From: Bacteroidota bacterium
Lineage (GTDB): Bacteria > Bacteroidota > Ignavibacteria > Ignavibacteriales > Ignavibacteriaceae
DNA: 56,668 nt
Assembly (NCBI GenBank): GCA_021824145.1
Contig: JAKALM010000019.1
Coordinates: 1 to 56,668 of the forward strand
Reading direction: 5' to 3'
Positions 34,724-36,752 of this stretch are shown here, in pieces. A program made the position numbers and the translations under genes. Position 1 is the first letter of the stretch; each line of letters begins with the position of its first letter. Under the pieces are notes generated by a model that was not told the origin of the DNA, searched no databases, and worked only from the letters and a program-made list of their open reading frames with translations.

Positions 34724-35701
34724 TTAACTCATCAAAGCAGCAATTGAAGCTGTGTTGACGATATCTTCGGCGCTGCAGCCGCGGCTCAAATCGAAATAAG
34801 GTTTGCTTAATCCTTGAATGATTGGGCCGATTGCTTCACATTTACCTAAGCGTTGAGCAATTTTATATCCAATGTTTCCTGAATTCAAATCCGGAAAGAT
34901 AAGAACATTTGCTCTTCCAGCAACATCACTGTTTGGAGCTTTACGTCTACCAATAGAATCAATAATTGCAGCATCAAATTGCAGTTCGCCGTCAATCATA
35001 AGATCAGGGCGTTTGCTCTTTGCAATTTTTAAAGCTTCAAGGACTTTATCTACCAATTCATGCTGAGCACTTCCTTTAGTTGAAAACGAAAGCATAGCGA
35101 TATAAGATTTTTCACCTGTAAGCTTTGCATGATTTTCTGCCGCTGAGATTGCAATATCAGCAAGCTGTTCTGCATTTGGATTTGGAACAACTGCGCAATC
35201 TGCAAATGTATAAGTCTTTTCTGGAAATACCATCAAAAAGAAACTTGATACAATTGAAATACCTTGCGGCATTCCAACGCATTGAATTCCAGCTCTTAAA
35301 ACATCCGCGGTAGAAGCTGTTGAGCCAGCAACGCTTCCATCAGCTAAGCCTTCTCGAACCATCATTGCGCCAAAGAATAAATCTTTCTTAATAGTTTCCT
35401 TAGCTTGTTCAATTGTTAGTCCTTTATTCTTTCTTAAGTTAAAATAAACATTGGAGAAATCACTAAGCTTTTCAGATTTTGTTGGATCTATTATTCTAAC
35501 TCCGGTTAAATCGATGGCAAGTTTATTAGCATTTTCTCTAATTTTATTTTCTTCACCCAATGTAATAATTGAGGCAATTTTCTCTTTGCTTAAAATTTCT
35601 GCAGCTTTTAACACTCTTTCGTCGTGAGATTCTGGCAGAACGATCGTCTTTTTAATTTTAGATGCTTTTTCTTTTATACTTTGTATTATTGTATTTTCCA
35701 T
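34724..35701 (-). CDS. pta: phosphate acetyltransferase
   Basis: Interconverts acetyl-CoA and acetyl phosphate, linking the pyruvate dehydrogenase product to acetate metabolism. 325 residues from the ATG at 35701; a TTG two codons upstream is the alternative. This is the short, catalytic-domain-only form. Motifs: VLPESHDERVLKAA, VAGSTASTADVLRAG (about 125-139), FADCAVVPNPNAEQLADIA and the C-terminal NVLIFPDLNSGNIGYK...RLG region, all typical of Pta and distinct from phosphate butyryltransferase. Acetate kinase is not in the window. A MITE-like element lies 30 bases upstream of its start and may contain or disturb its promoter. Confidence 0.9.
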   Translation of the reverse strand: MENTIIQSIKEKASKIKKTIVLPESHDERVLKAAEILSKEKIASIITLGEENKIRENANKLAIDLTGVRIIDPTKSEKLSDFSNVYFNLRKNKGLTIEQAKETIKKDLFFGAMMVREGLADGSVAGSTASTADVLRAGIQCVGMPQGISIVSSFFLMVFPEKTYTFADCAVVPNPNAEQLADIAISAAENHAKLTGEKSYIAMLSFSTKGSAQHELVDKVLEALKIAKSKRPDLMIDGELQFDAAIIDSIGRRKAPNSDVAGRANVLIFPDLNSGNIGYKIAQRLGKCEAIGPIIQGLSKPYFDLSRGCSAEDIVNTASIAALMS

Positions 35702-35721: not shown

Positions 35722-35730
35722 TAATTTACA
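35722..35730 (+). repeat. left copy of 9-bp direct repeat (candidate target-site duplication)
   Basis: TAATTTACA immediately left of the terminal inverted repeat of the element at 35731-35891; the identical 9-mer lies directly at its right end. Confidence 0.6.
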
Positions 35731-35891
35731 ACCAGTTGTGTGAATTAGATTGTAAGCCGTTGAAACGGCTCTAATAAAGCATGTTTTTCATATTAACCCA
35801 CGGATTAATCCGTGGGTTAATAAAATCACTCTTTAATTTAGTAACTGTTTCAACAGTTTCCTATGATTAATTTTTAATTCACACAACAGGT
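35731..35891. mobile_element. 161-bp MITE-like / REP-like nested-hairpin element
   Basis: Non-coding. Terminal inverted repeats ACCAGTTGTGTGAATTA (35731-35747) and its partner (35875-35891) match at 16 of 17 positions. The element is flanked on both sides by TAATTTACA. Inside, in order: hairpin AGCCGTT-GA-AACGGCT (35755-35770), a perfect 32-bp palindrome (35791-35822, centred on GGATTAATCC), and hairpin AACTGTT-TC-AACAGTT (35843-35858). The two outer hairpins share the core GTTGAAAC in opposite orientation, so the element is symmetric at several scales. This architecture suggests a non-autonomous element moved by a transposase encoded elsewhere. It occupies the 340-base gap between pta and yggS. 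Confidence 0.75.
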
Positions 35892-35900
35892 TAATTTACA
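35892..35900 (+). repeat. right copy of 9-bp direct repeat (candidate target-site duplication)
   Basis: TAATTTACA directly abutting the right terminal inverted repeat; identical to 35722-35730. Confidence 0.6.
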
Positions 35901-36047
35901 ATCCAAAATTAAGAAAATTAGAATTGAATAATTGAATAACTTGGTTTTAAATTGATTATTTTTAATAAGCAAAAATGGTAAGTTAGTTAGTCAATTTACG
36001 TTGATTATTGATATGAAAACTTCTAAATTCACAATCTTAATTTTTAT

Positions 36048-36752
36048 ATGATAGCTGAAAACATATACGAAGTTAAGGAAAAAATTAAAAGAAAATGCGC
36101 GGAAGTTAATCGCGATATTTCAGAAATAAAACTAATAGCAGTTTCGAAAAATTTTGGTATTGAAGAAATTGAAGAAGCTTTTAATGAAGGCGTTATAGAC
36201 TTTGGTGAGAATAGGGCTCAAGAGCTGGATATAAAATTTTCGAGACTAGGGAATAAGATTACTTGGCATTTTATAGGTAATCTTCAAAGGAATAAAGTTC
36301 GGTTCGTGGTTAATTCTTCTGATTATATTCATTCTGTAGATTCTCTTTTAATTGCAACAGAAATAAATAAGCGTGCTGGATTGATAAACAAGATCCAAAA
36401 AGTTCTTTTACAAGTTAACACTACGAATGAGGAAACGAAGTCTGGCCTTACAGATTATAATGAAATCAAAGATCTTGCTAATTATTGCATGGATTTTCCA
36501 AATATTGAACTGATTGGATTGATGACGATTGGCCCGTTAACCGATGATATAAATTTGATTAGGAAAAGTTTTAGCCAATTACGAAAAATAAAAAATCGGT
36601 TAAATGCAGATAACATTAATATAAATGAATTATCGATGGGAATGACATCAGATTATGAAATTGCAATTGAAGAAGGTTCTACAATGTTAAGGATTGGTTC
36701 AGCAATTTTTGGGCAAAGAGATTATTCAACAAGCTGGAAGGAGAAGCTATGA
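36048..36752 (+). CDS. yggS: YggS/PLPBP family pyridoxal-phosphate homeostasis protein
   Basis: 234-residue single-domain PLP protein (alanine-racemase N-terminal-like barrel) that buffers PLP and affects amino and keto acid balance. The PLP lysine is K34 in IAVSKNFG; FGENRAQEL and WHFIGNLQRNKVR are family motifs, and LSMGMTSDYEIAIEEGSTMLRIGSAIFG is the C-terminal phosphate-binding signature. It corresponds to Bacillus ylmE and opens the divIVA-ileS-lspA cluster. Its stop overlaps the divIVA ATG by four bases, which implies coupled translation. No clear SD of its own. Confidence 0.93.
   Translation: MIAENIYEVKEKIKRKCAEVNRDISEIKLIAVSKNFGIEEIEEAFNEGVIDFGENRAQELDIKFSRLGNKITWHFIGNLQRNKVRFVVNSSDYIHSVDSLLIATEINKRAGLINKIQKVLLQVNTTNEETKSGLTDYNEIKDLANYCMDFPNIELIGLMTIGPLTDDINLIRKSFSQLRKIKNRLNADNININELSMGMTSDYEIAIEEGSTMLRIGSAIFGQRDYSTSWKEKL

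Follow-up and report, generated by a model that had tools for sequence, protein, structure and literature searches.

A probable IS982-type MITE in Ignavibacteriaceae carries a three-hairpin interior that recurs between different terminal repeats

Introduction

The IS982 family of insertion sequences is described as having ends of the form AC(N)6T(N)5TT, a mean length of 996 bp and direct repeats (DR) of 2–10 bp (PMC7335449). MITEs derived from this family include MITECca01 and MITECca02 of Cardinium (~240 bp), which derive from the resident ISCca4 and were found in a single strain (PMC9769881). Palindromic hairpins are associated with transposases of another kind, the Y1 (HUH) enzymes. Known members of IS200/IS605 are said to make no target duplications (PMC2817692), and the TnpA-Y1 proteins of subclass 1.2, which carry the signature DHIH, WQ and Y---Q--HH, were described in 2018 as generally lacking IS200-like terminal structures (PMC6006769).

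Here we characterize an element that joins features of both groups. It lies within a 56,668-nt stretch of Ignavibacteriaceae DNA (the window), between pta and the gene of a YggS-family protein, and was followed through its own genome and through 80 genomes of the family.

Results

The element at the pta–yggS locus has the structure of a MITE (Table 1). It is short and has no transposase gene, and it carries terminal inverted repeats (TIRs) and a target duplication and is present in several copies. A sequence-only reading had described a 161-bp element with 17-bp TIRs that differ by one mismatch and abut a 9-bp repeat, all of which was recovered exact to the base (the mismatch lies at position 4), and the two opposed side hairpins and perfect central palindrome that it listed are likewise present. 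The element stands 29 bp from the ATG of pta and 156 bp from the start codon of yggS. When folded as a single strand, its 161 nt reach −60.5 kcal/mol, whereas 200 dinucleotide shuffles average −25.2 (s.d. 3.6) and all fold less stably (z = −9.8; other strand, z = −9.1). With up to three mismatches allowed, the central 24-mer matches nowhere else in the window (0 in 100 shuffles), a scan of the window against Rfam returned no family at gathering score, and promoter-like sites are about as frequent as in shuffles (4 versus 3.3). The central palindrome was also considered as a terminator and rejected, no terminator-like site being found. A block just upstream of yggS (35998–36047), which in relatives reads ACGTTGATTATTGATxxxAAAACCTATAAATTCACA, is kept in 11 of 12 genus genomes compared and is left intact by the element; this block may be the yggS promoter.

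Table 1 Coordinates of the element, its parts and its neighbours (window positions), with incomplete or diverged relatives elsewhere in the genome (contig:position)
Feature	Position	Strand	Basis
pta, phosphate acetyltransferase	34724..35701	-	PF01515 E 1.5e-124; TIGR00651 E 6e-116
Target-site duplication, left copy, TAATTTACA	35722..35730	.	exact match to right copy
Whole 161-bp non-autonomous element, probable IS982-type MITE, short form	35731..35891	+	copies and empty site
Left TIR, ACCAGTTGTGTGAATTA, 17 bp	35731..35747	+	fits AC(N)6T(N)5TT
Side hairpin A, AGCCGTTGAAACGGCT, two central bases unpaired	35755..35770	.	
Central hairpin B, perfect 32-bp palindrome, TTAA at centre and both sides	35791..35822	.	
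Side hairpin A', AACTGTTTCAACAGTT, two central bases unpaired	35843..35858	.	
Right TIR, 17 bp, ACCTGTTGTGTGAATTA on minus strand	35875..35891	-	fits AC(N)6T(N)5TT
Target-site duplication, right copy, TAATTTACA	35892..35900	.	exact match to left copy
YggS-family PLP protein, divergent neighbour	36048..36752	+	TIGR00044 E 6.3e-64; orthologues
Single arms and diverged relatives	C7:69526, C7:75268, C35:7791, C24:1907, C27:601090, C23:24099, C10:18197		

The element had been read as one that moves, and it does recur. Comparison of the whole element with its own genome (G000; a 3.48-Mb draft in 37 contigs, 95% complete) gave 44 BLAST rows, arms and both strands included, which were resolved by hand into 18 candidate copies, 17 of them with both ends. 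Five of these two-ended copies are short (160–162 bp) and 12 are long (267–272 bp), and the flanks differ for each. An exact and flush duplication of 7–9 bp borders 14 of the 17 (7 bp in seven copies, 8 bp in five, 9 bp in two), while one of the remaining three has a 5-bp repeat and two have a repeat with one mismatch; when left flanks were paired with the right flanks of different copies, at least 7 bp was matched in 1 of 272 pairs and at least 5 bp in 6 of 272. The long copies hold, in place of the central hairpin, a piece of ~130 bp with GGGGCTGTCC-like ends (ends measured in 9 of the 12), which lies in one orientation in ten copies and inverted in two. These composites have their own duplications and have thus spread as units. 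The inverted pieces are found at C32:7548-7826 and C12:12651-12928, where the outer arms keep their orientation. Six of the 17 two-ended copies are on contig C7 (144 kb), far above its share of the genome; 20 kb of this contig, inspected by eye, resembles ordinary chromosome. A lone exact 17-bp TIR at C27:319249 (L043 1501) was examined as a possible full insertion sequence and discarded: it is a fragment overlapping the end of a gene that we take to be radical-SAM-like, and no partner end lies close by.

The locus is empty in relatives. yggS is present in all 13 genomes of the genus, and the element is absent from the pta–yggS gap in 10 of the 10 relatives in which the gap is fully read (G012, with a gap of 594 bp, is included; G023, with only 130 bp visible upstream, and G014, cut within the gene, are left out). 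When the flanks of the insertion were joined through a single TAATTTACA, they matched G021 at 166 of 202 columns, where no gap close to the target exceeds 1 nt, and G016 at 116 of 162; the alignments with G018 (148/221) and G017 (129/190) are poorer and more gapped. The gap of G021 is clean and holds a single TAATTT-like copy, and so supplies the empty site in a relative by which the sequence-only reading was to be judged.

The ends of the element resemble those of IS982. Both fit the family consensus letter by letter, and a scan of named genomes for IS982 yielded 80 loci. An inverted repeat was recognised at 43 of the 45 loci that were examined, in 24 cases with an exact duplication of 6–9 bp, a length close to the 7–9 bp of the present copies. 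Since just 5 of these 43 repeats fit the strict consensus at both ends, and five more at one end, the consensus is a loose marker, and end identity with two particular insertion sequences weighs more. The first, a 1029-bp IS982 with 300 codons open in a Bacteroidetes MAG (L304), agrees with ACCxGTTGTGTGAATT, in which position 4 is free, at each of the 15 specified positions of either end; it shows no exact duplication. The second emerged from a TIR scan of the 13 genus genomes: in G018 the pair ACTCGTTGTGTGAATT/ATCAGTTGTGTGAATT, 1009 bp apart, encloses a broken transposase. Its three pieces match the NCBIfam IS982 model at E 6.2e-10, 3.8e-7 and 3.2e-28, none of them attaining the cut-off for a whole protein, and the locus taken together exceeds that cut-off (180.9 bits versus 130). 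At the specified positions, one of these ends has one mismatch and the other two, and the count can be higher depending on the frame of comparison. The transposase with matching ends that had been anticipated is thus of the IS982 family, intact in ends at L304 and decayed in G018. Furthermore, the ends of an IS982 in a Melioribacteraceae MAG (L300) match the window TIR at 14 and 13 positions, and two genus genomes hold IS982 frames at contig ends with ACCCGTTGTTCGAAAT at the visible end, an open one of 304 aa in G021 (253.9 bits) and a partial one in G022 (197.8 bits). Within the genus, the IS982 that retains an open frame carries TTCG in place of the GTGT of the element, and the copy with the closer match is broken. 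Among 20 stretches around single or oddly spaced TIRs in the genus genomes, a transposase was recognised by eye only in G018:C18.

With ends, duplications, copies and empty site all directly observed, we consider it very probable that the element is an IS982-type MITE, with IS982-like ends around a gene-free interior. An IS982-family DDE transposase would move it in trans and duplicate 7–9 bp of AT-rich target, a mode of mobilisation that we infer from the matching ends. The IS982 transposase model (NF033520) has no match in the 95%-complete draft of its own genome, and the copies there are therefore probably stranded now, unless the transposase lies in the missing part. The only IS982 trace in this genome is a 184-bp remnant (C24:54651-54834), both sides of which resemble IS982 ends. 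Across the family, the transposase was detected at E 1e-25 in 3 of 80 genomes, all of the same genus.

The interior of the element is a module composed of hairpin A, central palindrome B and hairpin A', with the two side hairpins in mirror symmetry. A pattern combining one side hairpin with the central palindrome was matched in 25 of the 80 family genomes, from 9 of 29 genera, while a reversed control pattern gives five matches over all 80 genomes, such that a few lone pattern matches may be chance. In an alignment of 37 complete and distinct modules (101–111 nt), 97.9% of cells are paired and nine pairs have changed on both sides, in all three helices; covariation is 0.186, against 0.092 for shuffled alignments (0 of 500), and pairing falls to 19–50% when the partners are shifted by 1–3 columns. 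As the modules were collected with a pattern that demands hairpins, and near-symmetric modules were oriented by best fit, only the unspecified positions (e.g., columns 5–18, 53–60 and 54–59) are independent evidence. The three-hairpin module is kept paired by compensatory changes. Its consensus begins GTAAACC, and no GTAG/GTGG or CGTC tag is present at the hairpin foot.

In relatives, at least three different kinds of terminal repeat enclose this module. The first type is the IS982-like one; within its own genome, diverged three-hairpin elements carry GTTGTTCGAAAT-type ends on both sides at C27:601090 and on one side at C10:18197. The second type, ACTCAAGTTGACCGCT, is flanked by an exact and flush duplication of 5–6 bp in 10 of 13 module-bearing elements measured, compared with at least 5 bp in 10 of 156 mismatched flank pairs, and occurs at up to one mismatch in at least 36 of 80 genomes (three control matches; some lone matches may be chance). 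As the IS982 transposase was detected only in the genus of the window (3/80), the detected IS982 does not explain the type 2 ends. These ends start with AC and have T at position 9, and an IS982-like element is a possible owner; no full-length insertion sequence with them was found among the loci examined. The third type, ATGAGTCTGGTCTAAAAAGGT, was met in G011, where a terminal repeat with a score of 12 or more borders 12 of the 20 copies retrieved and a single side hairpin was detected in each of the 20. Of 17 further loci in genomes G066–G068, 14 lack clear ends within 75 nt; among the other three, L411 has type 2 ends, L415 shows a weak repeat and L405 is cut short. Some additional loci of these genomes appear, by eye, to carry decayed type 2 ends, and two other G066 loci (L101 and L103) carry type 1 ends. 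The module appears to change carriers.

Hairpins of like plan also stand beside Y1 transposase genes, of which the genome of the window has two (L221 and L220). The first (L221; G000:C17, 1084-1527) has cas2 as one neighbour and a type II cas1 as the other; a pair of side and central hairpins stands on each side of the gene and a third pair beyond cas1; the spacers within the pairs are 46, 31 and 31 nt, compared with 29 in the window element, and none of 200 mononucleotide shuffles of the locus shows the pattern. Its protein scores 56.6 bits against the NCBIfam IS200/IS605 model (cut-off 55) and 21.7 bits, below the cut-off of 80, against the REP-associated one, and it has the motifs DHIH, WQ and Y---Q--HH, which make up the signature reported for TnpA-Y1 subclass 1.2 (PMC6006769). 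In G048, which also has one control match, the sole pattern match adjoins a Y1 gene (L257) 52% identical to L221, with hairpins on one side and the locus ending inside the gene. A search of 30 module loci with the L221 protein found a Y1 gene only at L257, such that the link to Y1 genes rests on two loci. The other Y1 gene of the genome (L220; G000:C29, 1290-2550) has hairpins of another kind, arrays of the CCCAGCCGTGAACGGCTGGG type, which likewise have two unpaired central bases. Because like hairpins flank an IS200/IS605-like gene, our analysis suggests that the module may stem from a single-strand transposition system and have been caught between IS982 ends. The combination of REP-like hairpins with DDE-type ends proposed from the sequence was thus found, but the hairpins lack the GTAG/CGTC tag and the Y1 gene is of the IS200/IS605 rather than the REP-associated kind.

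Discussion

The usual account of a MITE is that it is what remains of a single parent transposon. In the present case, one paired interior occurs with at least three kinds of ends, and the duplication length differs between the two kinds measured, which requires that MITEs exchange ends, that different transposons have captured the hairpin unit, or that the hairpins are under selection. We tentatively propose, as a possibility well short of even, that the module is a mobile cassette, a substrate of orphan TnpA-Y1 subclass 1.2 (HUH) transposases that is placed into, or exchanged among, unrelated DDE ends. Its carriers would then be IS982 ends with 7–9 bp duplications, ACTCAAGTTGAC ends with 5–6 bp and ATGAGTCTGGTCTAAAA ends, and MITEs would change carrier as partner transposases come and go. 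The module also provides a candidate DNA substrate for the TnpA-Y1 proteins of subclass 1.2.

Selection might instead act on the module as a functional RNA or protein-binding site, the MITE being a mere carrier. The two-sided changes in all three helices, the narrow range of module lengths and the recurrence between different ends would all be expected of such a site, but neither an Rfam match nor a terminator-like site was obtained, the orthologous site lacks the element in every readable relative, and the 12 copies that have another insert for the central hairpin have still spread; we regard this account as improbable.

Least probable, and only marginally credible to us, is an origin as a REP/BIME-type repeat that owes its spread to a single-strand transposase (RAYT or IS200-like), with TIRs and duplication incidental: for all that the three hairpins in mirror symmetry, the same-plan hairpins flanking a Y1 gene in the genome of the window and adjoining one in G048, and the 14 of 17 G066–G068 loci without recognised ends agree with it, most copies end at TIRs with 7–9 bp duplications, the consensus has no GTAG or CGTC tag, some end-less loci may carry decayed type 2 ends (by eye), copy number is below the usual >100 of REP (7 pattern rows in this genome), and the CCnCG..CGnGG central hairpin lies inside three-hairpin elements at 3 of 3 places in this genome, of which two show clear IS982-type ends and the third (C24:1907) has decayed flanks. 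For the pta–yggS copy it is largely refuted by the empty site and the duplication.

An IS982-derived MITE is in itself of a known kind; the hairpin interior shared with different ends makes this element an unusual variant. Searches of the open-access literature brought up neither this module nor REP-like hairpins enclosed by IS982 ends, and passages of PMC4596501 and PMC10969869 hold nothing closer. REP/BIME with TnpA-Y1 (RAYT) systems have palindromic hairpins beside Y1 genes (PMC2817692, PMC3733652, PMC6006769), and hairpins of like plan stand on both sides of the Y1 gene at L221 and on one side at L257, but not at L220; unlike the REP/BIME described there, the module is untagged, few in copies and enclosed by DDE-type TIRs with duplications. 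With the IS982 family the element shares AC-starting ends and a duplication within the reported range, and it differs in having no transposase gene and in measuring 161 bp versus ~1 kb (PMC7335449). The closest counterparts, MITECca01 and MITECca02, likewise have IS982 ends and no transposase and are numerous, lying for the most part between genes or within other mobile elements, and the text consulted mentions no three-hairpin module (PMC9769881); the present element, by contrast, has no resident partner seen here and has an interior common to several genera and end types.
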